In this document: piece by piece, positions 1,626 through 35,478 of the stretch | Numbering within the stretch: position 1 is the first letter of the stretch | How the letters are laid out: each line of letters begins with the position of its first letter | Source of the DNA: Nitrospirota bacterium | GTDB lineage: Bacteria; Nitrospirota; Thermodesulfovibrionia; UBA6902; JACROP01 | Length of the DNA stretch: 35,533 bases | Direction: 5' to 3' | NCBI GenBank assembly: GCA_016214385.1 | Contig: JACROP010000173.1 | Coordinates: 1 to 35,533, forward strand | Program-made: the position numbers and the translations under genes | Notes under the pieces: model-generated | The model's input: only the letters and a program-made list of their open reading frames with translations | Database searches by the model: none | What the model was told of the DNA's origin: nothing

Positions 1626-2825
1626 ATGGATATGAAGAAACTCATAGAGGACTCTAAGAAATACATAATGAATACCTATGACCGCTACCCTGTTGTCCTT
1701 AGAAAAGGCAGGGGCATGAAGGTGTGGAGTTATGACGATAAAGAATACCTTGATTTTGTCGCAGGTATTGCCGTGAACTGTCTGGGTCATTGCCATCCAA
1801 AAATTGTTGTTGCAGTCCAGAAGCAGGCCCAGAGGCTTTTGCATGCATCAAACCTCTATCACATCGAGCCACAGGTAAAACTTGCACAACTCCTCGTAGA
1901 GCATTCATTTGCAGACAGGGTATTTTTTTGCAACTCAGGGGCCGAGGCCAATGAGGCTGCGATAAAGCTTTCCAGAAAGTATGCGAAAGAACACATGGGG
2001 CCGGAGAGATTTGAGATTATAACTGCTCACGGCTCTTTCCACGGCAGGACCCTTGCAACCCTCAGTGCTACAGGGCAGGAGAGATTTCATAAGGGATTTG
2101 AGCCCCTTGTGCCTGGTTTTATACATGTCCCTTTCAACGATACAGGCGCCATTAAGAATGCCATTACAAAACATACATGCGCTGTCATGCTTGAGCCTAT
2201 TCAGGGAGAGATCGGCGTGAAGATGCCCAGTGAAGGCTACTTTAAAGAGGTCAGGCAGTTATGCGATGAACATGGCCTTTTACTAATACTCGACGAAGTT
2301 CAGACTGGCATGGGCAGGACAGGTAAGCTCTTTGCTTACGAACATTTTGGAATCACACCTGATATTATGACCCTCGCAAAGGCCCTTGGAGGTGGAGTGG
2401 CTATAGGTGCAATGCTTGCCAGGGAGGCTGTTGCCGCTTCTTTTCAACCTGGCTCGCATGCATCGACTTTTGGCGGCAACCCTCTTGCGTGTGCGGCTGC
2501 CATTGTCACTATTGAAACAATCCTTGAAGACGGCTTTATCCTCGATAACTGCAGACGTATGGGGGATTACCTGAGAAATGGGCTTGAGGGTCTCAAGAAA
2601 GAATTCCCTTCAATAATTGCAGATATACGGGGTAAGGGCCTTATCATTGGCATGGAACTTACAAGAGAATGCAAGACTATAACCACCGCGTGTATGGAAA
2701 GAGGTGTCCTTGTAAACTGTACTGGAGGGAATGTCCTCCGCTTTATCCCTCCCTTGATAGTTACAGAAAAAGAGATAAACCACCTCCTCGATGTCCTTGA
2801 GGCGGTCTTTGGAGGGCTTTCATAG
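1626..2825 (+). CDS. argD: Acetylornithine aminotransferase
   Basis: A PLP-dependent class III aminotransferase that converts N-acetylglutamate semialdehyde and glutamate to N-acetylornithine and 2-oxoglutarate in arginine biosynthesis. The 399-residue length is normal. It has SGAEANEAAIKLSRK (104-118) for cofactor phosphate binding, SFHGRT (137-142), ILDEVQTGMGRTG (221-233) with the pyridine-nitrogen Asp223, and K252 in TLAKALGGG as the Schiff-base lysine. The gene runs directly into argF, with only four bases between its stop and the best argF start, so the two are co-transcribed. Related enzymes acting on ornithine, GABA or succinylornithine share these motifs; the argF neighbour decides the call. 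Confidence 0.93.
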   Translation: MDMKKLIEDSKKYIMNTYDRYPVVLRKGRGMKVWSYDDKEYLDFVAGIAVNCLGHCHPKIVVAVQKQAQRLLHASNLYHIEPQVKLAQLLVEHSFADRVFFCNSGAEANEAAIKLSRKYAKEHMGPERFEIITAHGSFHGRTLATLSATGQERFHKGFEPLVPGFIHVPFNDTGAIKNAITKHTCAVMLEPIQGEIGVKMPSEGYFKEVRQLCDEHGLLLILDEVQTGMGRTGKLFAYEHFGITPDIMTLAKALGGGVAIGAMLAREAVAASFQPGSHASTFGGNPLACAAAIVTIETILEDGFILDNCRRMGDYLRNGLEGLKKEFPSIIADIRGKGLIIGMELTRECKTITTACMERGVLVNCTGGNVLRFIPPLIVTEKEINHLLDVLEAVFGGLS

Positions 2826-2829
2826 GAAA

Positions 2830-3735
2830 ATGAAAAGGGATTTTTTAACATTATGGGATTTATCAACAGGGGAGATAAATACCATTCTTAAGAGGGCATC
2901 TGAGTTTAAATCAGGTAAAGACGCAACCACCTGCCCTTTAATTGGAAAAAGCATCGGGCTTTTATTTGAAAAGGCATCCACGAGGACAAGGATTTCCTTC
3001 CAAGTGGGCATCTATCAGCTCGGAGCCCAGGCTATATACCTAAACCCAAAAGAGATACAGCTTGGAAGGGGAGAGACCATAGAGGATACAGCCAGAGTGC
3101 TTTCGAGGTATTTACACGGTATTGTAATCAGAACCTTTGCCCATAAGACTATAGAGGAGTTTGCAAAAAATGCATCAATACCTGTAATTAATGGCCTTAC
3201 TGACCTGCATCATCCGTGTCAGGCCCTTGCAGATATCTTAACTATAATGGAGCAGAAAAGTCGCTTAAAAGGCATACGCCTGTGCTACATAGGTGATGGA
3301 AATAATGTTGCCAACTCCCTTATTGAGGCAGCATCGAGGACAGGCATGGATATTGTGCTTTCCTGCCCGAAGGGCTACAAACCTGACGCAGAGATTTTAG
3401 AAAGAGCCCGCAGAGAATCAAAAAATAACATTCAACTCATAGACGACCCCCTGGAGGCAGCCTCAGCCGCAGATGTGCTTTATACAGATGTATGGGTCAG
3501 CATGGGCCAGGAGGAAGAGACTAAAAAGAGGAGAAAAGTTTTTAAACAGTATCAGATTAATAAGAAGCTTCTATCCCGTGCCAGGCCTGATGCCATAGTA
3601 ATGCACTGCCTGCCTGCCCACCGTGGAGAAGAGATTACGGATGAAGTCATTGACGGGCCACATAGCCTGGTCTTTGACCAGGCAGAAAACAGGCTCCACA
3701 CCCAGAAGGCACTCCTCGAGATGCTGATAAAATAA
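2830..3735 (+). CDS. argF: Ornithine carbamoyltransferase
   Basis: Transfers the carbamoyl group of carbamoyl phosphate to ornithine to make citrulline. I start it at the ATG at 2830, giving 301 residues. The longer reading from 2791 overlaps argD and adds a tail unlike the family, and the paralogue at 4985 begins with the same MKRDFL. All functional motifs are present: STRTR at 50-54 and Arg101 for carbamoyl phosphate, HPCQALAD for the carbonyl and domain linkage, a VSMGQEE loop for ornithine, and HCLPAHRGEEI near the C-terminus. It is co-transcribed with argD. The last 156 bases are almost identical to the end of the paralogue at 4985-5854. Confidence 0.94.
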   Translation: MKRDFLTLWDLSTGEINTILKRASEFKSGKDATTCPLIGKSIGLLFEKASTRTRISFQVGIYQLGAQAIYLNPKEIQLGRGETIEDTARVLSRYLHGIVIRTFAHKTIEEFAKNASIPVINGLTDLHHPCQALADILTIMEQKSRLKGIRLCYIGDGNNVANSLIEAASRTGMDIVLSCPKGYKPDAEILERARRESKNNIQLIDDPLEAASAADVLYTDVWVSMGQEEETKKRRKVFKQYQINKKLLSRARPDAIVMHCLPAHRGEEITDEVIDGPHSLVFDQAENRLHTQKALLEMLIK

Positions 3736-4859: not shown

Positions 4860-4984
4860 GGCTAAAAATATAGCACATTCCTTCTGTCGATACTACCGAG
4901 GTTTATGGTAAATTTTTAAAAAATGTTTGTCTTTGAGTATCAAAATATTGAGAATACCCTTTATGTGTGATAATATCTGATGCC

Positions 4985-5854
4985 ATGAAAAGGGATTTTC
5001 TGAGGGTCATTGATTTTACTGTTGATGAGCTGGAATCCATTCTTCAGAAGGCCGCTGACTTTAAGAACTCTTTTGACCCTGGATACAGCGCCCTTATCGG
5101 CAAAAATATCGGCCTCTTATTCGAAAAGCCTCCTACAAAGATGGCCGCATCTTTTGAGGCGGGTATAAATCACCTCTGGGGGAGACCTGTTTACATTGAC
5201 TCAAAGACTATATTCCAGGGTAAAGGGTCTCTCCTTGAGTCGGCAAAAGTCCTCTCAAGATATATTAATTGCATGATAATGAGCGCAATTTCTCACAGCA
5301 CTGTAGAGGAATTTGCGAGACATGCATCTATACCTGTGATTAACGCAAATACTGACCTGCATCATCCGTGTCAGGCCCTCGCAGACCTCTTAACTATTTT
5401 TGAGAAAAAGGGTAGATTCTCTCTGAGGCTTGCATACATAGGCGAAGGAAATAATATTGCACATTCCCTGATTGAAGGGGCTGCGAGGGTCGGGATGGAT
5501 ATTTCCCTCGCATGTCCTGCGGGTCACGAACCTTTTTATGAAATTATCCAGGAGGCGCGGAGAGAAGGAAGAAGTTTGATAGAGGTTGTAAGGGAGCCAT
5601 CTGCTGCTGCAAAAGATGCAGATGTCCTTTACACATCTGTTATGTCAAAACCCTATGGAAAAAATCTTTACCAGATAAACAGTTCCCTTCTAAAATTGGC
5701 CAGGCCTGATGCCATAGTAATGCACTGCCTGCCTGCCCACCGTGGAGAAGAGATTACGGACGAAGTCATTGATGGGCCACATAGTGTGGTCTTTGATCAG
5801 GCAGAAAACAGGCTCCACGCTCAGAAGGCCCTCCTTGAGATGCTGATAAAATAA
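4985..5854 (+). CDS. Ornithine carbamoyltransferase-like paralogue lacking the carbamoyl-phosphate motif
   Basis: A 289-residue paralogue of the argF at 2830. I take the ATG at 4985 because MKRDFL aligns with ArgF. The fold motifs HPCQALAD and HCLPAHRGEEI remain. However, STRTR of ArgF is replaced by P50-T-K-M-A54, ArgF Arg101 corresponds to Ser100, and the SMG ornithine loop is replaced by SVMSKPYG. By family knowledge these residues bind carbamoyl phosphate and ornithine, so ordinary ArgF activity is unlikely. It could be a pseudoenzyme, a regulator, or a transferase of altered specificity such as the YgeW-type proteins. The reading frame is intact and well conserved, which argues for selection. 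Its last 156 bases match argF at about 147 positions, far more than the rest, which suggests gene conversion. Confidence 0.85.
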   Translation: MKRDFLRVIDFTVDELESILQKAADFKNSFDPGYSALIGKNIGLLFEKPPTKMAASFEAGINHLWGRPVYIDSKTIFQGKGSLLESAKVLSRYINCMIMSAISHSTVEEFARHASIPVINANTDLHHPCQALADLLTIFEKKGRFSLRLAYIGEGNNIAHSLIEGAARVGMDISLACPAGHEPFYEIIQEARREGRSLIEVVREPSAAAKDADVLYTSVMSKPYGKNLYQINSSLLKLARPDAIVMHCLPAHRGEEITDEVIDGPHSVVFDQAENRLHAQKALLEMLIK

Positions 5855-12481: not shown

Positions 12482-12567
12482 GGAGGGGTGGCCGAGTGGA
12501 CGATGGCGGCGGTCTTGAAAACCGCAGGCCGAAAGGCCCGTGGGTTCGAATCCTACCCCCTCCGCCA
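12482..12567 (+). tRNA. tRNA-Ser(UGA)
   Basis: An 86-base class II tRNA with encoded CCA. The acceptor stem GGAGGGG pairs with CCCCTCC, with discriminator G before CCA. The anticodon loop CTTGAAA between GCGGT and ACCGC gives anticodon TGA, reading UCA-type serine codons. A long variable arm (GGCC GAAA GGCC) identifies serine, and the T loop TTCGAAT is standard. It sits between serS and the radical SAM gene. Confidence 0.96.
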
Positions 12568-12606: not shown

Positions 12607-13806
12607 ATGGGTTATTTTTGTCTGAAAAAAGACTGTTTCTTAAAGCTTCTGGAATCTCCCTGCCTTTACGATGTGACCACGGATGAGCTTTACGAGCTTG
12701 ACCTCGACTCACTGGAATTTCTAAAAAAGTGCTCAGAAGGCAAGGCCCTACATCCGGGTGGCAATAAAGAGATTGTAGATTTCTGCCTCGCAGAAGGCCT
12801 AATTTCAATAGAAGAACGGCCAGGGATTGTTGATTCCCCAGTTCAACAGTCGCCAGTTCCATCCCTCAGGTATCTTGAGCTTCAGATTACAAACAGGTGC
12901 AATCTCCGCTGCGGCCATTGTTATCTTGGAAAGCCCGGAGAAATTGATCTCGGCCTTAAAGAAATTAAAAATATACTTGAGGAGCTTGAGGCAATGCAGG
13001 GCCTGAGGTTACTCCTCTCAGGAGGAGAACCGTTACTCCATCCGGAATTCTGGAAAATAAATGATCTGCTTCCAGAATTTGCTTTAAGGAGTGTGCTGCT
13101 TACAAACGGCACTTTACTGAATACGAAAACAGTCCGCAGACTGAATGTCCACGAAATACAGGTGAGCCTGGACGGACTCGAAGATGGCCATGATTTTCTG
13201 AGGGGTAAAGGGACTTTTAAAAAAGCCCTTCACGGGATAACTAATGCAAAGGAGGCTGGCATAAATGTTTCAGTAGCCACAATGGTGCATGTCGGAAATC
13301 TTGATGAATTCGATGGACTCGAATCACTGCTAAAAAATTTCGGTATCAGAGACTGGACTGTTGATGTGCCGTGCATTCTCGGCAACTTAAAAGACAATCC
13401 TGGTCTTATAGTGCCGGCAGAGGCTTCGTCTGTTTATTTGAATTATGGTTTTGGCAAGACGCTTCATAATTGTGACACAGAAAATTATGCCTGTGGTGCA
13501 CATCTCATGGCAGTTATGGCTGATGGAACAGCCGCCAAGTGTGCCTTTTTTGCAGATGCCCCTGCAGCAGGAAACATTAAAGATGGCCTCCGGGCTTGCT
13601 GGCAGAATATAAAGAAATTTGACCTCGATGAACTCAGGTGCGACTGCGATATGATTGATGAATGTCGCGGTGGCTGCAGGTACAGGGCATTTCTATATGG
13701 AGATATTTTAGGGAAAGACCTCGTCAAATGTTATGCCTATGGTATAATTAAAGAAAAGCCTGACATGAAGCCATGGCTATCTTGCGGAAAGGGGGTAAAG
13801 GTATGA
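12607..13806 (+). CDS. Radical SAM/SPASM peptide-modifying enzyme
   Basis: A 399-residue radical S-adenosylmethionine enzyme. Residues 1 to about 75 (YDVTTDELYELDLDSLEFL, then VDFCLAEGLI) resemble the small PqqD-like RiPP recognition fold. C98, C102 and C105 form the CxxxCxxC motif for the SAM-binding 4Fe-4S cluster, and LLLSGGEPLLHP (135-146) follows. The C-terminus is a SPASM domain: C296, then G307 and C312, then C345, C347, C353, C357 and C375. This agrees with the canonical spacing except that the first pair of the second block is CxC rather than CxxC. Such enzymes typically make thioether or other crosslinks in short peptides. The stop codon overlaps the ATG of a 19-residue cysteine-rich peptide gene, the obvious substrate. 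No transporter or protease is adjacent. Confidence 0.9.
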   Translation: MGYFCLKKDCFLKLLESPCLYDVTTDELYELDLDSLEFLKKCSEGKALHPGGNKEIVDFCLAEGLISIEERPGIVDSPVQQSPVPSLRYLELQITNRCNLRCGHCYLGKPGEIDLGLKEIKNILEELEAMQGLRLLLSGGEPLLHPEFWKINDLLPEFALRSVLLTNGTLLNTKTVRRLNVHEIQVSLDGLEDGHDFLRGKGTFKKALHGITNAKEAGINVSVATMVHVGNLDEFDGLESLLKNFGIRDWTVDVPCILGNLKDNPGLIVPAEASSVYLNYGFGKTLHNCDTENYACGAHLMAVMADGTAAKCAFFADAPAAGNIKDGLRACWQNIKKFDLDELRCDCDMIDECRGGCRYRAFLYGDILGKDLVKCYAYGIIKEKPDMKPWLSCGKGVKV

Positions 13807-13862
13807 TTAAGAAAGTATTAAAGAAGCTTTTGAATACCTGTAAGTGCAAAGGCTCCTGTTAA
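13803..13862 (+). CDS. Candidate cysteine-rich RiPP precursor peptide
   Basis: A 19-residue ORF, MIKKVLKKLLNTCKCKGSC, too short for ordinary gene calling. Its ATG overlaps the TGA of the radical SAM/SPASM gene (ATGA), and a purine-rich AGGGGG lies upstream at a workable distance, so translation should be coupled. The first 12 residues are basic and amphipathic, leader-like; the last seven, CKCKGSC, hold three cysteines, glycine and serine and are core-like. A strong terminator follows 27 bases after its stop, so it closes a two-gene unit. I know no named family with this sequence. Maturation by the adjacent enzyme, probably at cysteine, is inference. Confidence 0.75.
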   Translation: MIKKVLKKLLNTCKCKGSC

Positions 13863-13889
13863 GATGATAGGCATTTATATTTAGAATCA

Positions 13890-13919
13890 GGGGTTAGTAA
13901 AAAACTGGCCCCTTTTTTT
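13890..13919 (+). terminator. Rho-independent terminator after the radical SAM/peptide unit
   Basis: GGGGTTAGT, a loop of five A, then ACTGGCCCC forms a 9-bp stem with two G-T wobbles. It is followed by seven T. It is the clearest intrinsic terminator in the window. Confidence 0.88.
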
Positions 13920-13966: not shown

Positions 13967-14326
13967 ATGAAGCGTTTTGTCGTACAGGAGCACCACGCAC
14001 GCCATCTGCACTGGGATTTCCGTCTTGAAAAAGAAGGGATTCTTAAAAGCTGGGCTGTGCCAAAAGGCCCGCCTGAGAAAAAGGCGATTAAAAGGCTTGC
14101 TGTTCAGGTTGAGGACCATGAGCTGAGTTATATTGACTTTGAAGGCACAATAGCCGAAGGTCTTTATGGTGCGGGCACTGTAAAAATCTGGGATAAAGGC
14201 ATATACACCATGGAATCAGAATCCCTAAAACGCCTGGTATTTGAATTAAAAGGCAGACGGTTGACTGGTAAATACGCCCTCGTCCACCTGAGAGAAAATC
14301 AGTGGCTCCTGATGAAGCTCGAATAG
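13967..14326 (+). CDS. Stand-alone DNA 3'-phosphoesterase (LigD PE domain)
   Basis: A 119-residue protein that is the 3'-phosphoesterase domain normally fused to DNA ligase D, where it trims 3'-phosphate and 3'-ribonucleotide ends during end joining. The metal and phosphate residues of the family are visible: [18 protein letters not shown] at 4-21 (H9, H10, H13, H15, D17, R19), [13 protein letters not shown] around His51, EGLYGAGTV and WLLMK at the end. No ligase or primase domain is present or nearby, and no Ku gene is in the window. It is 18 bases upstream of polA on the same strand, so both probably belong to one repair unit. Stand-alone PE proteins occur in other bacteria and archaea. Confidence 0.88.
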
Positions 14327-29800: not shown

Positions 29801-31225
29801 TTATTTTCTAAGTATAATTATCCAGTCAGTATTTATTCTTTCCTCACGAGGAACTTTTATAACATGTTTTATGATCTCTGAACCGAAATAATTCTCTACA
29901 TTAAACCCGATTCTTTCTGACATTGGCATTAAATATTTCCATGTCTCAAACAGTTCATTTCTTATTTTATTGTTGCCAACTACGATTATATATCGTCCAC
30001 TTCTTCGTAGCACTTTATAGACTTCTTTCAAATTAAGTTCCATATCTTTTAAATATTTGAAAGCAATATAAGCTCGTCTCTGATCTTTCTTGAATATCTT
30101 AGTGATTATTTTATCTGCGCTGTTTATTCCAGTCAAGCAAAGTTTTTTGTAGTCTCGAGAAGATACGCTTTCTGTCCCTACATGATTTTTCTTTAAGGGG
30201 GTTAGTGAACCAGTTGCAAGTCCCAACCAGTAAATTTCCAATTGATGTGTTCTAGGATAATCTACAGCATTAGCATAAGGAGGGGATGTTAAAGCTAAAT
30301 CAAAAAAATGACCAGAATTTCTAATATTCCTTGCATCATTATTAATCGGAAAATCTACTTTTATATTTTTTGGACACACTAGTGAAAACTCAATCATTTT
30401 AGGCACATTGACCAATACACGCTCAACAAACTTTTTAAGTGCATAAGCAGGATAGACTTTTTTATTTAATTTTTTTCTTATCACAGTCCTTGTACAATTA
30501 TCGTCGGCATTTGAAACCGATCTAATAATTGACGAAAAACAGATTTTTAAAAAGTTTTGCACATCAATGCTTACTTCTAAAGAATTAATTATTTTTTTGA
30601 GATATGCTAACTCCAAAACTATTTCCTTATTGAACCAGTTATCTCTATATTGAAAATCAGGAATGTCAACCGCCTTTACTTTTGTTGGATGATATTTAAT
30701 TACTGACTTTAAAAGCGCGTTTTGTGAATATTTAAGTTCGTCAGCGTCTAAAGGTGTTGTCTTAACTTTGGAAAGAAAACATGAAAATGGATCAACATCG
30801 ACCCCTACAGAATGCCTGTTTAATAACAAGGCTTCAACATTTGTAGTTCCACTCCCAGAAAATGGGTCAAGCACTCTATCTCCTTCATTTGAATAACGTC
30901 TGATAAGCCATCTTGGAAGTTCAGGAAAAAATTTTGCCGGATATTTATGGAAACCATGTGTATAAATACTTTGATCGTAGCTGATAAATAAAAATCTATC
31001 ACCATTTCCTGTTGGCAAATCTATCGGGATATCGCCATCAACACGAGTTATCTTCTCTCCGAAGTCATTAATTATCTCTTTAACGTTTTCTAATTCTTCA
31101 TATCCATTAAATAAAAATGGCTGATTTTGCTGATTGTTTCTTTTGCCATTCCCATTTCTTTTAGAAATTTTTTGTCTTATCTCTTCGATTGAAATAGGAT
31201 AATAGTCATTTGCTAAGGCTTGCAT
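29801..31225 (-). CDS. DNA methyltransferase of the TSPPY type (module 1)
   Basis: A 474-residue amino-methyltransferase. HGFHKYPAKFFPELPRWLI (90-108) leads into motif I, D120-P-F-S-G-S-G-T-T128, for SAM binding. The catalytic motif IV is TSPPY at 313-317, the form most often seen in N4-cytosine and some N6-adenine enzymes. GRYIIVVGNNKIR near residue 410 is the following strand. The large segment between motifs I and IV may carry target recognition. It is paralogous in layout to the methyltransferase at 32617. The downstream small nuclease-like gene suggests a type II system. It is preceded by GGAG and by debris of another methyltransferase-like gene. Confidence 0.85.
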   Translation of the reverse strand: MQALANDYYPISIEEIRQKISKRNGNGKRNNQQNQPFLFNGYEELENVKEIINDFGEKITRVDGDIPIDLPTGNGDRFLFISYDQSIYTHGFHKYPAKFFPELPRWLIRRYSNEGDRVLDPFSGSGTTNVEALLLNRHSVGVDVDPFSCFLSKVKTTPLDADELKYSQNALLKSVIKYHPTKVKAVDIPDFQYRDNWFNKEIVLELAYLKKIINSLEVSIDVQNFLKICFSSIIRSVSNADDNCTRTVIRKKLNKKVYPAYALKKFVERVLVNVPKMIEFSLVCPKNIKVDFPINNDARNIRNSGHFFDLALTSPPYANAVDYPRTHQLEIYWLGLATGSLTPLKKNHVGTESVSSRDYKKLCLTGINSADKIITKIFKKDQRRAYIAFKYLKDMELNLKEVYKVLRRSGRYIIVVGNNKIRNELFETWKYLMPMSERIGFNVENYFGSEIIKHVIKVPREERINTDWIIILRK

Positions 31226-31226
31226 A

Positions 31227-31350
31227 TTATTTTCTCCTTCTATCTTTAATCTCTTTCATCCCCCGGCTATCGCCGATGATTATGGTGGTTTTAGATGGCA
31301 TAAGCCTGCTCATATTCTTCAAACTCTTTAAAACACCATGTGCACTCCAT
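31227..31350 (-). pseudogene. Remnant resembling a methyltransferase N-terminus
   Basis: Two tiny overlapping frames. The first, 31350-31291, has an AGGTG upstream and reads MECTWCFKEFEEYEQAYAI. The second, 31301-31227, contains TTIIIGDSRGMKEIKD before a stop just ahead of the next gene. GDSR followed by M-x-E is how many SPPY-type DNA methyltransferases begin, so this looks like the start of a third, deleted methyltransferase with a frameshift. A leader peptide is an alternative. Confidence 0.35.
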
Positions 31351-31355
31351 ATAAT

Positions 31356-31628
31356 TCACCTCAGTCTATCTGTATAACTCAACCTTACATATCTGTTTTC
31401 TGTCCATCGCCATATAGAGACATCATAGTAGCCGGACTTATTTACAGTCTCAGGCTCTAATCTATGATCACTTGCAATCTCATCAAAGACCTGCTTGGCG
31501 TCTTTGAAAGAACCAAAATGATTGATTTCGACAACCTTGCCGCCTTCCGCTGCCACAATTAAAAACTTTGCATCATAAGGCTGAGGTAATTGGTAGGTAA
31601 TGACATTAGAAGATTTTACTTTTTCCAT
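31356..31628 (-). CDS. Small protein of unknown function
   Basis: A 90-residue soluble protein that I do not recognise. Starting MEKVKSSNVITYQLPQPYD, it alternates predicted strands and a helix (VEINHFGSFKDAKQVFDEIASDH) and ends with SIWRWTENRYVRLSY. There are no cysteines, membrane segments or catalytic motifs. AGGGGAG lies at a suitable distance before the ATG. It lies between the two restriction-modification modules, 14 bases downstream of the larger nuclease gene, so it is probably co-transcribed with module 2. A role as a controller or accessory to restriction is possible but unsupported; it has no helix-turn-helix. Confidence 0.6.
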   Translation of the reverse strand: MEKVKSSNVITYQLPQPYDAKFLIVAAEGGKVVEINHFGSFKDAKQVFDEIASDHRLEPETVNKSGYYDVSIWRWTENRYVRLSYTDRLR

Positions 31629-31642
31629 ATCGACTCCCCTTT

Positions 31643-32620
31643 TTATTCTATTCGTATTTGGTAATGAAATAATTCTTCTAAAAACTCTTGTTTTTTCTTT
31701 TCGTCTGCAAGGATGTCAATTAAGTTGAAGTACGTATCGATTTCTCGATCTGTTTTTAATTGGGATAAAACAGCTTCAGTAAAGCAACTTGCTAAATAAA
31801 TAGTTAAGCAATGCGCATTTTCAGACTTGGCTTTTGCAAATGATTTCTTGGCCTCGCCTAAGCGAGTCTGAGCGCCAGCTTTATCCATGCTGCCTTTTAT
31901 TTCAATAGCAACCTTTAACTTATCTCTATTGTCTCTGATTGAAATGTCGGGTTCGCTTGAGAAAATAATGCGCCAATTATTATTCAAGATAAGATGAATC
32001 TGTTTTTGTTTTTTGCCTTTTACGGTTATATCTTTTTTCTCAGTTGATGAAACGAACTCCTTCTCTTGAGCATATTCTTGTATTATTTCTTCAACAGCCT
32101 TTGCTGCTCCCTGCCCAATAATATTTACCCAAGTGCCTTGTATCTCTGAACCTATTTCTGCTATTAACGCATTTTTTGCAAGAGAAAAAGAGAAACCTTC
32201 GGTATCAATAATGACACTTGAAATAACTTTGTTTAAGGTCTCAGCAATTAATTGAAAGCGTTCTTTATTATCTCCTTTACGGGCTTTTGGCAATCTGCCG
32301 GATAGAATTTGACTTAGACCTTTCTGTGATAAAGCAGTTAAACTTCTATAATATTCGACAAGATTTGGACATTTATTTAAAATCTCTGGATGACAAAAAA
32401 TCATGTAAGGAGGGATAGAAGCCGTCTTAGTAACAATAAAAGCCTCTTTAGAAATACCCAATTTTTCAATATTCCATGTGATATCTTTTATTGCACATTT
32501 CTCAACGCGTGTAAATAGTTTTTCAATGTTTTTACTTTTCAAAACCGAATAAAAAAGCTTTGCTCTAGCAACATATGATTTTATAAGCGCTTCATTGAGA
32601 CTTGAGTCTGTTCTTTTCAT
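31643..32620 (-). CDS. Putative type II restriction endonuclease (module 2)
   Basis: A 325-residue protein starting inside the end of a methyltransferase gene (ATGA overlap), the classic arrangement of a restriction partner. The C-terminal half has a PD-(D/E)XK pattern: SEPDISIRD near residue 228, then VAIEIKGSMDKAGAQTRLGEAKKSF. In it the Glu-x-Lys pair and the following helix are well formed. The layout of this domain resembles the XcyI-type restriction enzyme family, but I cannot confirm that without a search. The N-terminal half is helical and unrecognised. Predicted to cut DNA not protected by the methyltransferase encoded just upstream. Confidence 0.72.
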   Translation of the reverse strand: MKRTDSSLNEALIKSYVARAKLFYSVLKSKNIEKLFTRVEKCAIKDITWNIEKLGISKEAFIVTKTASIPPYMIFCHPEILNKCPNLVEYYRSLTALSQKGLSQILSGRLPKARKGDNKERFQLIAETLNKVISSVIIDTEGFSFSLAKNALIAEIGSEIQGTWVNIIGQGAAKAVEEIIQEYAQEKEFVSSTEKKDITVKGKKQKQIHLILNNNWRIIFSSEPDISIRDNRDKLKVAIEIKGSMDKAGAQTRLGEAKKSFAKAKSENAHCLTIYLASCFTEAVLSQLKTDREIDTYFNLIDILADEKKKQEFLEELFHYQIRIE

Positions 32621-33918
32621 AGAGGCTTCCTCCAGAATACTATTGTTTCTCGTACTGGAATTCGCCCATAACGGGCCATCTGTTGCGAACTATTGCCTTT
32701 GTAACGTGTTATCCATATCTTTTCTGTTTTTAAGCCATTCAATTCTGCAAGTTCAGAAAGGATAATATCTGTAGGGATCATCTCTCCCTCAAAGCGAGCA
32801 TTAGCCACAACAAGGGCTACAATGCCTCCAGGCTTGAGATAACGTGAAACTTGTTTTATAACAAGGTTCATATCCTCGAAATATCCTTTTATCATTATTG
32901 GAATTCTCTCATTGTTCAAATCTTTTTCATTGAGATTTCTTAATATCTCATCTATTGCTGGAATGGAGAGTTCTTTCCCATTATGTATTTTTGATTCAAT
33001 ATGAGACCTCAATAAACTATGTCTGACTTCGCTAAGGTTACTTGAATTTAAAGTGCAGAGTTCGAGCGCGTAGGTTCTGGAATAGTCATATCTGTTCAAA
33101 TAGGGGGGTGATGTAATAACTGCACCTATCTTTTCCCAATATTTTTCTGGAAGATCAGATTCTCTTGCGTCTCCTTTTAAAATTTCGACCTTAGCCTTGC
33201 CTTCTTTAAAAAGTGCGTTTTGTTGTATGTGTAAATCATCAATCATGTTTGTAAGTTGTCTTCCGAGAGCTTCTTTTACAGAAATGATGACCCTATCAAC
33301 TATTCTTAGGAACTGACCGTCTTTGGAGGTATAGCTAACGTTCTCAAGAATACTAATGAGTCCAAGCATAAGGAAGTCCTGAACAGGCTTCTTAAATTTA
33401 AGAATGCACTCCTTATAAAAGAGTATTTCTTCTTGCGTATGTTTTGGAAATGCCTTATCGATAATAGATACTTCAGGGAAAAAAAGTTTAGGCTTACGAA
33501 ATTTCTCCTTCATGAGTGATTGAACTGCTTTTTCTAAAACCTTAAGGTCAGGCCAATCCTGTAGCTTTACTCTTGCAACAAAAATTGCTACTGGCAATAT
33601 ATCAAGCCCAACTGCCTTATATCCGAATTCCTTGCAAGCAAGTAATGTAGTTCCACAGCCTGCAAAAGGGTCGAAAACGATATCGTTTTTATTTATTTGC
33701 CATTCCTTCAGTATGCTATAAACAAGCTGCCTCGAAAATCCTTCCTTGTATTTAAACCAGTTATAAACAGGAAGGTTTTTATTTGGGACATATGTTACAA
33801 GTTGCCTATAATCCAGACGATTTTCAAAGTATCTGGAATATTTTGCCTCTAAGCGGTCACGCTCGAATGTTGAATCGGTACTGCTATCCGTTATCTCAGT
33901 CAGTGTTGCAGTCTTCAT
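32617..33918 (-). CDS. DNA methyltransferase of the TSPPY type (module 2)
   Basis: A 433-residue amino-methyltransferase. Motif I is D83-P-F-A-G-C-G-T-T91, preceded by FKYKEGFSRQLVYSIL. Motif IV is TSPPYLNRYDYSRTYALEL from 269, with GGIVALVVANARFEG later. Motif order (I before IV), size and the YxRTxxLEL stretch after SPPY are the same as in module 1, so the two enzymes are distant paralogues. The last codons overlap the nuclease gene by ATGA, which couples their translation. Target sequence and whether it modifies N4-cytosine or N6-adenine cannot be read directly; the Ser in SPPY leans to cytosine. Confidence 0.86.
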   Translation of the reverse strand: MKTATLTEITDSSTDSTFERDRLEAKYSRYFENRLDYRQLVTYVPNKNLPVYNWFKYKEGFSRQLVYSILKEWQINKNDIVFDPFAGCGTTLLACKEFGYKAVGLDILPVAIFVARVKLQDWPDLKVLEKAVQSLMKEKFRKPKLFFPEVSIIDKAFPKHTQEEILFYKECILKFKKPVQDFLMLGLISILENVSYTSKDGQFLRIVDRVIISVKEALGRQLTNMIDDLHIQQNALFKEGKAKVEILKGDARESDLPEKYWEKIGAVITSPPYLNRYDYSRTYALELCTLNSSNLSEVRHSLLRSHIESKIHNGKELSIPAIDEILRNLNEKDLNNERIPIMIKGYFEDMNLVIKQVSRYLKPGGIVALVVANARFEGEMIPTDIILSELAELNGLKTEKIWITRYKGNSSQQMARYGRIPVRETIVFWRKPL

Positions 33919-33966
33919 AAATTTATCCTTTTCAAAAATCTGCCTTTTAGCTGATATAAAACCTTG

Positions 33967-34269
33967 TTATTTATCATCTTCGACTGGCTGTTCTATCGTG
34001 ATTATATCTTTTAGGTTTTCAGCGTAATCTATCGCTCTTAAAGGATAAGGTTTTGGTTTTGCCGACTCTGATTTTGTCGGCTGTTTTGTTTCTTGCTTTT
34101 TATCGCTTATCTGACTCCTCATATTTGATTTTTTAGTTTTATGATTAGATTGATTTGCCCCTCTTTGAGATGGCACAGTTCCGTAGCTCTGAGGTTTGCC
34201 CTGATTGCTTTGGTTACTATTGCCAGAATTTTGTTGAGAACTACTTACTCCTTGGTTTGTTTTGCTCAT
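33967..34269 (-). CDS. Ser/Gln/Asn-rich low-complexity protein
   Basis: A 100-residue hydrophilic protein. Residues 1 to about 70 are almost only Ser, Gln, Asn, Gly, Lys and Thr and are surely disordered. A more ordered tail (PLRAIDYAENLKDIITIEQPVEDDK) may be the interacting part. There is no signal peptide or membrane segment. A very strong AGGAGGT sits before the ATG, and the ATG overlaps the TGA of the membrane protein gene upstream, so the pair is translationally coupled. No function is assigned. The coupling implies that it works with the membrane protein. Confidence 0.65.
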   Translation of the reverse strand: MSKTNQGVSSSQQNSGNSNQSNQGKPQSYGTVPSQRGANQSNHKTKKSNMRSQISDKKQETKQPTKSESAKPKPYPLRAIDYAENLKDIITIEQPVEDDK

Positions 34270-34796
34270 ATATTACCTCCTATGAAATTTTTAATGACAA
34301 TATTTAAAATAGTCAGTAAAACAGTATAAGTCATCGAAATTGAGATCATAATTAATATGGTTCCTCGTTGAAAAACAGTTGCCATATTGTCAACAATTGG
34401 TATGTTCTTCTTTAGAGTTTCATCATAAGTGGCGATTAGTCTGCTCTCTACATCTATCGAATCTTTTTCTAACTCTTTATTAAAAACAAGCTTTTCGTAA
34501 TCTATTCTTTGAAATGTTTTTATTCGTATTACATTCAAAAAAAGAACTATAGCTATAATAATTATGAGCATTGCTAATATTAAGAGGGGGGCGTTTAAAT
34601 TTATATACCATTTCTGCTCAAATATTGTTTTGAGAAGGAAAATTATGGAAGTTAATAAAATACCAGCGACCGTTAACATCATCTGAACTTTTGATGTAAT
34701 AAAGCTATTTCTTTCTGATTCGCCTTCAAATTCCCTCTGAAGAACCTGCAAGACTGTTTTCACAGTTTCAGGATTATATTTTGGCATATCGGTCAT
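34266..34796 (-). CDS. Small three-helix membrane protein
   Basis: A 176-residue protein with hydrophobic segments at about 41-60 (MLTVAGILLTSIIFLL), 70-90 (LLILAMLIIIIAIVLFLNVI) and 145-168 (ILIMISISMTYTVLLTILNIV). A short cytoplasmic helix is expected at 10-35 and a charged helical loop at 92-142 (ESRLIATYDETLKKN). This layout of two close helices, a helical linker with LxxxYxxxxxxN, and a third helix is like membrane effectors of bacterial antiviral systems (Pycsar-TM or SLATT-like). The match is only of general shape. Its stop overlaps the next gene (ATGA). It lies between a toxin-antitoxin pair and restriction genes. Confidence 0.65.
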   Translation of the reverse strand: MTDMPKYNPETVKTVLQVLQREFEGESERNSFITSKVQMMLTVAGILLTSIIFLLKTIFEQKWYINLNAPLLILAMLIIIIAIVLFLNVIRIKTFQRIDYEKLVFNKELEKDSIDVESRLIATYDETLKKNIPIVDNMATVFQRGTILIMISISMTYTVLLTILNIVIKNFIGGNI

Positions 34797-34797
34797 T

Positions 34798-34866
34798 TTA
34801 CCTTTCCTTCCTCACCCCTTTAAACTGCTCTTTATCCGCTTTCTGGTCAATCAATGAATCTTCCAT
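34798..34866 (-). CDS. Possible 22-residue leader ORF
   Basis: MEDSLIDQKADKEQFKGVRK and two more residues, ending one base before the ATG of the membrane protein gene. It is hydrophilic, without recognisable motif or strong Shine-Dalgarno. It may be a leader peptide, the tail of a lost gene, or chance. Confidence 0.22.
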   Translation of the reverse strand: MEDSLIDQKADKEQFKGVRKER

Positions 34867-34885
34867 ATCGGCCGTCTTTCGTCTC

Positions 34886-35230
34886 TCATAAATTCAAGTG
34901 CACTTTCAGTGCGTTATTTATTGCATCCAGAATGTTGTGGTTATTAATAAACCAAACAGAATCTTTCAGCCTCTGTTTTGAGATTGTTCTTATTTGATGT
35001 GCAAGGATAATAGAATCCTGAGCAAGACCTCCAATCCCTTGTTTTAGTAAAACTTCATTGGGATAAACCCGCCTGCCTTCCTTTAATGAGGTTATAGGCA
35101 AAATAGTTACTACAGGCATAAGTCTATTAAAATCTTCATCGCTGACAACTATAACGGGTCTTGTCCCTTTCTGTTCCGAGCCCTGAACAGGATTAAGGTC
35201 TGCGATAAAGATTCCCCATTTATAATTCAT
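34886..35230 (-). CDS. MazF/PemK-family mRNA interferase toxin
   Basis: A 114-residue ribonuclease toxin. The family signature GIFIADLNPVQGSEQKGTRPVIVVS occupies residues 6-30; Arg24 and Thr47 (in VVTILPITS) are in the expected catalytic places. LLKQGIGGLAQDSIILAHQIRTI is the conserved second half. The ATG overlaps the stop of the upstream antitoxin gene by ATGA. Expected to cleave mRNA at short sequences when the antitoxin is degraded. Confidence 0.92.
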   Translation of the reverse strand: MNYKWGIFIADLNPVQGSEQKGTRPVIVVSDEDFNRLMPVVTILPITSLKEGRRVYPNEVLLKQGIGGLAQDSIILAHQIRTISKQRLKDSVWFINNHNILDAINNALKVHLNL

Positions 35231-35478
35231 TTTTTCACTTCTTCGAAATCAACATGTTCAAAATCTTTTTCTATCTCTCTAATATCCGCAAGAAAAAGGG
35301 GATCTTTAGCTGCATCCCTGATAGCTGCCTTTATGCGCTCTTTGTTAATACTAACCAACTCGTCCTTTATTGCAGTCTCAACAAATGCGTTCATAGACTT
35401 AAATGTTCCATTTTCAACAATTTCTTTTGCTTGCTCTATTATCCCCTCATCGAGGACAAAAGTTGTTTTTTTCTTCAT
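35227..35478 (-). CDS. Ribbon-helix-helix antitoxin (MazE-like)
   Basis: An 83-residue antitoxin. Residues 1-50 (TTFVLDEGIIEQAKEIVENG, then SMNAFVETAIKDELV) look like a ribbon-helix-helix DNA-binding domain; the acidic C-terminus (DIREIEKDFEHVDFEEVKK) should wrap the toxin. GGAGG precedes the ATG by seven bases. A TAAAAT -10 at 35512-35507 lies upstream, with the direct repeat TTATGC around it as a possible operator; the -35 would fall at or beyond the window edge. Autorepression by the complex is usual for such pairs. Confidence 0.85.
   Translation of the reverse strand: MKKKTTFVLDEGIIEQAKEIVENGTFKSMNAFVETAIKDELVSINKERIKAAIRDAAKDPLFLADIREIEKDFEHVDFEEVKK

Follow-up and report, generated by a model that had tools for sequence, protein, structure and literature searches.

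A 20-residue cysteine peptide and a radical SAM/SPASM enzyme as a candidate metal- or redox-handling system in three bacterial phyla

The stretch of DNA analyzed here (35,533 nucleotides of a Nitrospirota contig, hereafter the window) encodes a radical SAM/SPASM enzyme and, overlapping its end, a 19-residue cysteine peptide. Both are conserved and co-inherited in Nitrospirota, and the pair recurs in Desulfobacterota and Nitrospinota. With moderate confidence, we read the peptide (component A), the putative maturase (component B), and a cysteine-rich protein (component C) as a three-component RiPP-like system that makes a modified intracellular tri-cysteine peptide for the handling of copper or other soft metals and for redox handling. 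More tentatively, one maturase could serve several dispersed 20-residue precursors, with CKCK forms supplying a general redox/metal pool and CKCH forms placed in copper-export operons; Nitrospirota, Desulfobacterota, and Nitrospinota would then share a ribosomally encoded, enzyme-modified intracellular ligand of copper or soft metals that in effect takes the place of metallothionein or of low-molecular-weight thiols.

The peptide gene and its putative maturase

The maturase gene (12,607–13,806, forward strand) encodes 399 residues, and its product belongs to the radical SAM superfamily according to a Pfam Radical_SAM match (PF04055, 1.7e-21), an invariant CxxxCxxC motif, and AF2/Foldseek comparison. 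The 4Fe-4S motif reads CNLRCGHC (C98, C102, C105; 12,898–12,921). The SPASM domain (13,492–13,731), for which two auxiliary 4Fe-4S clusters are predicted, is spaced C296-x10-G-x4-C312, C345-x-C347-x5-C353-x3-C357, C375; measured against the yardstick of seven C-terminal cysteines, Cx9-15Gx4C–Cx2Cx5Cx3C–C, its seven cysteines place the enzyme in the SPASM subfamily, with a second pair that is CxC here versus CxxC in several Desulfobacterota. All seven, together with the three of the radical SAM motif (10/10 cluster ligands), are unchanged in 39 homologues drawn from the two phyla Nitrospirota and Desulfobacterota. The CxxxCxxC motif and the full SPASM set given in the preliminary description of this DNA are confirmed. 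Identity to orthologues is 47–56% within the class and 39–56% across Nitrospirota and Desulfobacterota.

An AlphaFold2 model built on the 39 homologues (pLDDT 91.9, pTM 0.90) finds its best PDB matches in SkfB, CteB, BlsE, and SuiB, followed at lower rank by anSME, PqqE, and ChlB, and sequence profiles agree with these structural neighbors (SkfB, CteB, SuiB, anSME, PqqE). In the model, approximately residues 1–70 (12,607–12,816) run strand-strand-strand-strand-helix-helix-strand. The PqqD-like N-terminus proposed earlier fits this predicted fold order and the RRE-bearing structural neighbors, but finds no support in Pfam, where PqqD gives no match and the enzyme passes the general Radical_SAM model only; because Pfam makes no call, we infer an RRE/PqqD-like, probably leader-binding domain from the model. 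The segments YELDxxxFxFLxxC and, in Desulfobacterota, LCDGT are reminiscent of PqqD as well. In NCBIfam release 20, the best score of the enzyme among the matches listed is 96.6 bits against a cut-off of 400; GeoRSP, SynChlorMet, WgkB, and other named SPASM systems stay below their curated cut-offs, and those of the SkfB, AlbA, StsB, and PapB models are likewise unreached among the matches listed. The MftC model gives 86.8 bits (cut-off 265), and the PqqE model gives 49.9 bits (cut-off 381) on a relative of the maturase (L134), so that the enzyme does not qualify as an orthologue of either. Canonical peptides have no Pfam match. The assertion that neither enzyme nor peptide falls in a named NCBIfam or Pfam family therefore holds, and the system is not one of the named SPASM systems listed in that release.

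The canonical precursor gene, MIKKVLKKLLNTCKCKGSC (19 residues; 13,803–13,862, forward strand), overlaps the stop of the enzyme gene by ATGA and ends in the proposed core CKCKGSC (13,839–13,859), aligned in the family as C-terminal C-K-C-x-x-[S/T]-C; the core pattern is expected by chance 0.00 times in the window. It is preceded by a Shine–Dalgarno-like sequence, GGAAAGGGGGT (13,786–13,796), which resembles the AAAGG(G/A)GG(T) of homologues. An alternative in-frame ATG lies upstream at 13,773, and both the homologues and the Shine–Dalgarno element AAAGGGGG support the 19-codon start. A Rho-independent terminator (13,889–13,919; −15.2 kcal/mol, z = −3.45), with a hairpin spanning 13,889–13,913 followed by a T tract, closes the enzyme–peptide unit. 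Overlap and strong terminator had both been described beforehand and are confirmed by these coordinates (enzyme end at 13,806) and this folding energy.

The neighbors of the unit in the window (serS, tRNA-Ser, LigD-N, polA) do not point to metals. The tRNA-Ser(TGA) gene (12,482–12,567) lies immediately 5′ of the enzyme gene, and a gene for a stand-alone LigD N-terminal 3′-phosphoesterase domain (PF13298, 1.7e-38; 13,967–14,326) sits between the peptide terminator and polA. Plasmid sequences searched with the window DNA gave no match. Elsewhere in the window, a second ornithine-carbamoyltransferase-like gene (4,967–5,854) is 57% identical to the first (2,791–3,735) and lacks the STRTR carbamoyl-phosphate motif (FEKASTRTRISF replaced by FEKPPTKMAASF), while its last 187 nt are 88% identical to the first copy; it is possibly a pseudoenzyme with a recently converted 3′ end. 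The right end (29,801–35,478) contains, as judged by eye, genes resembling those of DNA methyltransferases and of a MazF/antitoxin pair.

The short open reading frame is a real gene, to judge from the conservation of its codons. Loci were sampled by the enzyme alone (30 from Nitrospirota and 30 from Desulfobacterota), because selection on the full peptide motif had to be avoided, and were filtered for ORFs of 20 codons starting with MxI/V and ending in CxCx3C. The 41 ORFs that pass, all distinct in DNA sequence, read MxI[KRQ]K...CKCxx[ST]C; outside the filtered positions, K5, K15, and S19 (40/41) are also kept. Their variation falls mainly on third codon positions, with mean entropies at codon positions 1/2/3 of 0.72/0.75/1.40 bits over all codons and 0.36/0.32/1.15 bits in the core, a pattern indicative of purifying selection. 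I3 and K5 of the leader are as strictly conserved as the core. The length is nearly fixed at 20 residues (19 in the lineage of the window and in Thermodesulfovibrio; family range 19–21), and in related genomes the homologous short ORFs adjoining the enzyme are preceded by a strong Shine–Dalgarno sequence. The preliminary description had taken the ORF as the partner of the enzyme, and had named enzyme homologues without a conserved downstream ORF, or a lack of codon conservation in close relatives, as observations that would speak against it; instead, the short ORF is kept beside or together with enzyme orthologues, and its codons bear the mark of purifying selection.

Co-inheritance, distribution, and a third component

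Of 200 genomes of the class, 95 matched a DNA pattern for CKCK[GS]SC-stop, including one false match, and the reversed pattern matched none of the same 200. With an enzyme profile and a relaxed peptide pattern, peptide and enzyme occur together in 99 genomes and are both absent from 90, while 7 have the peptide alone and 4 the enzyme alone (3 of the 200 were left out of the enzyme re-test). The enzyme is thus present in 103 genomes. Two of the four enzyme-only genomes have the histidine paralogue discussed below; a third has the enzyme at the edge of a contig. An apparent absence of the peptide from 16 enzyme-positive genomes was mostly an artefact of the pattern (serine encoded by TCN, Asn/Ala at the variable position): 12 of them carry the canonical peptide and two the CKCH form only, and one (G374) has its enzyme gene at the end of a contig. 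Both presences and absences (the latter in f3–f5, within the order to which the window belongs) are spread across many families. In two families, f8 and f13, the latter identified as Thermodesulfovibrio from identical or nearly identical peptides in two named records (L121, L163), both genes occur although a long distance separates them, and the linkage is therefore functional, beyond mere chromosomal linkage. Peptide and maturase also show the RiPP hallmark of a ribosomal precursor encoded with a modifying enzyme, and their pairing as substrate and enzyme is strongly supported.

Few genomes depart from this pairing. A peptide was found without a detected maturase in G319 (L301; 100% complete, component C also absent) and G156 (L302; 99% complete, component C present), and a CKCH precursor without an intact maturase in G269 (L276); these three genomes are nearly complete, and the cases reflect either assembly gaps or true loss. 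G338, which also has a CKCH precursor, retains maturase fragments only: two tandem canonical peptide genes (L303/L195) each follow a copy of the C-terminal ~60–80 residues of the enzyme, an arrangement in which the maturase was either partly duplicated or has decayed while the peptides persisted. CKCH matches in four further genomes (G006, G210, G357, G058) were dismissed as chance occurrences without the leader, as were pattern matches in Ruminococcus, Campylobacter, Prevotellaceae, and similar records, which have neither leader nor enzyme.

Beyond Nitrospirota, a scan of named genomes found the peptide beside enzyme relatives in Desulfomonile, Desulfarculus, and Desulfobacterales (Desulfobacterota), and the same pairing in two MAGs labelled Nitrospinae/Nitrospinota. 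The enzyme is present in 30 of 297 sampled Desulfobacterota genomes; a 20-residue peptide lies within 1.5 kb of it at 26 of the 30 loci, and component C is also found at 26. The cores there are CKCKSSC, CKCKASC, CKCKRSC, CKCKKSC, CKCKKTC, CKCAKSC, CKCRSSC, CKCGGSC, CKCASSC, and CKCHSSC, leaving C-K-C-x-x-S/T-C as the irreducible core.

Component C, a protein of ~110 residues, has invariant C5, C9, C22, C55, C58, and C65 and a PCGG motif in Desulfobacterota, where it is encoded between peptide and enzyme or fused to the N-terminus of the enzyme. In three Nitrospirota families (f17, f18, f20) it adjoins the enzyme in divergent orientation, and in the genome of the window it is present (E 2e-24) but unlinked. 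It occurs in 25/25 enzyme-positive versus 3/35 enzyme-negative genomes (Fisher p 6e-14), although the genomes in this and the other co-occurrence and context counts are related, so that p-values overstate their independence. Component C has no match in Pfam, nothing meaningful in NCBIfam, and none in the viral contigs searched. The gene cutA (PF03091) lies directly upstream of it in f9 and f13 and nearby in f15. Since component C is conserved with the enzyme, the earlier picture of a "minimal" two-gene system is wrong; in many genomes, CKCH precursor genes far from the enzyme have to be added as well.

Histidine precursors, metal context, and competing readings

A paralogue with the same leader and the core CKCH[SKQN]SC is found in about 30 genomes of the class. 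Its loci lie in a copper-export context in 25 of 31 cases, against 1 of 57 for the canonical peptide, a comparison in which flank lengths differ between the two sets and the loci are phylogenetically related. In 21 of the 31 the CKCH gene directly precedes a gene for a Met-rich secreted protein, and the clusters examined encode a Cu-translocating P-type ATPase (TIGR01511, 624.5 bits against a cut-off of 397), proteins with YHS domains, a regulator of the ArsR type, and an efflux protein of the outer membrane. The maturase is present in 25 of 29 CKCH genomes. In Desulfarculus (L204), CKCHSSC and CKCKSSC genes stand in tandem beside one maturase, and at another locus (L391) a CKCHSSC gene alone adjoins the maturase; these two loci are the best evidence that one enzyme may serve both precursors. 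At a Desulfobacterota locus (L097), a Cu/Zn efflux gene of the SO_0444 family, above its curated cut-off, adjoins the operon, and a partial SO_0444 gene is in view at L204. Genes for SOD, rubrerythrin, flavo-diiron protein, thiol peroxidase, nitroreductase, or Fur-family proteins are near 16 of 57 canonical loci (f8, f12, f16, f17, f18) and 0 of 31 CKCH loci, where flanks are often shorter. In f9, f11, f13, f14, and f16 (L313–L328, L307, and others), the canonical peptide gene is followed in conserved order by a TPR-repeat gene, ispE, and prs; the TPR gene and ispE do not point to metals, and these neighbors and ruvC were rejected as functional partners and read as lineage synteny.

A mechanism can be proposed on this basis. 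The basic leader MxIKKVxKK of the ~20-residue precursor would dock on the RRE-like N-terminal domain of the maturase, whose radical SAM centre would take a hydrogen from the C-terminal core, C-K-C-K/H-x-S-C. With its SPASM clusters the enzyme may then install a crosslink, possibly a thioether or another bond, at Cys/Lys; a thioether at cysteine is a common outcome among radical SAM/SPASM RiPP maturases. The CKCKGSC core is the likely target in the window. Component C could help with maturation, with delivery, or with the loading of metal or clusters. Once made, the peptide would remain in the cell, where up to three thiolates with Lys/His nearby would suit Cu(I) or some other soft metal, and where such a tri-cysteine ligand might be linked to oxidative-stress defence, and the additional CKCHxSC precursors placed in copper-export operons would be matured by the same single enzyme. 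The role as an intracellular metal ligand put forward in the preliminary description gains indirect support from genome context. Beyond the identity of the genes, their conservation, their co-inheritance, and their surroundings, which the data show, we infer that B modifies A, what C does, and that the product binds metal in the cytosol.

Other readings explain parts of this picture. The crosslinked core could be trimmed to a redox cofactor of the PQQ/mycofactocin kind for a dedicated oxidoreductase or electron-transfer protein, which would agree with the very short precursor, the SPASM enzyme with its RRE-like domain, the near-universal chromosomal inheritance, and the redox genes near the canonical peptide. 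Among the clustered neighbors, however, no oxidoreductase family follows the peptide in all lineages, the core offers Cys/Lys rather than Glu/Tyr or Val/Tyr, and the CKCH paralogue is found in copper operons; such a cofactor is unlikely, albeit the strongest of the alternatives. The position of the CKCH gene before the Met-rich protein gene would also be expected of a copper-sensing uORF, a nascent or leader peptide of the CruR/DUF2946 type that regulates downstream copper genes and is no product in itself; CruR uORFs stand at the head of copper operons and sense copper through CXXC (PMC9426467). This appears less probable still: the CKCH genes share the leader, track the maturase, and can adjoin it (L204, L391), their peptides have no RAPP-like arrest motif, and in the window a terminator after the canonical peptide leaves nothing downstream to regulate.

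The resemblance of the Cys-Lys-Cys core to the CxC of metallothioneins, and the few genomes with a peptide and no detected enzyme, would fit an unmodified miniature metallothionein co-inherited with a radical SAM enzyme that acts on another substrate. Tight co-occurrence, overlap or adjacency of the genes in several phyla, the RRE-like domain, and a leader whose I3 and K5 are as conserved as the core make this quite improbable. Least credible of all is a secreted bacteriocin of the sactipeptide/ranthipeptide type or a metallophore. The nearest solved structures, SkfB and CteB, are indeed thioether-forming maturases, but exporter, protease, and immunity genes are not conserved neighbors, the inheritance is chromosomal and nearly single-copy, and the core hardly varies, unlike that of bacteriocins.

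Relation to known systems

The modified intracellular tri-cysteine peptide that we favor would belong to an unnamed peptide–maturase family present in about half of the bacterial class sampled; precursor genes of 20 codons make this family easy to overlook. Should the copper link prove true, it would explain the separation of precursor genes from the maturase, and we know of no earlier radical-SAM-matured peptide that acts on metals inside the cell. Neither the CKCKGSC/CKCKSSC motifs nor the peptide–enzyme pair were found in the open-access literature, to which the search was confined.

With SkfB, CteB, SuiB, ChlB, and PqqE, the maturase shares its fold, a predicted N-terminal RRE-like domain, the CxxxCxxC motif, the seven-cysteine SPASM domain, and a short precursor encoded next to it; it differs in its low identity (14–21% in structure alignment), the 19–21-residue precursor, dispersed precursor genes, and the lack of an exporter among conserved neighbors. 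The PQQ and mycofactocin pathways are similar in their short precursor, SPASM enzyme, RRE (here a predicted RRE-like domain), chromosomal inheritance, and presumed intracellular product, but here the core is of Cys/Lys type, their companion biosynthesis genes are not conserved neighbors, and a sister precursor is found in copper operons.

Copper-binding RiPPs of MNIO enzymes (CuRiPPs), exemplified by bulbicupramide (PMC12538549), are likewise small ribosomal peptides linked to copper. The present system has a radical SAM maturase instead of an MNIO/DUF692 enzyme (no MNIO enzyme was recognized by eye among the clustered neighbors), a peptide of 20 residues, and a product that is probably intracellular. 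The CruR/CutF (DUF2946) uORFs are comparable as small cysteine ORFs heading copper operons; CruR, however, has 145 residues, is predicted to be exported, and carries the motifs CXXC and RAPP, the latter for arrest (PMC9426467), both missing from the 20-residue peptides, which have a maturase and, in the canonical form, no downstream gene to regulate. Metallothioneins are also small CxC peptides in a metal-stress context and presumed intracellular, yet the present peptide is shorter, keeps a fixed leader, and has a maturase of its own. The enzyme has the sequence features that define the SPASM group, and the system would operate in the manner of an RRE-dependent SPASM RiPP or of a peptide-cofactor pathway. 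Its product seems to be a hitherto undescribed peptide of ribosomal origin that handles metals or redox chemistry within the cell and occurs in three bacterial phyla.
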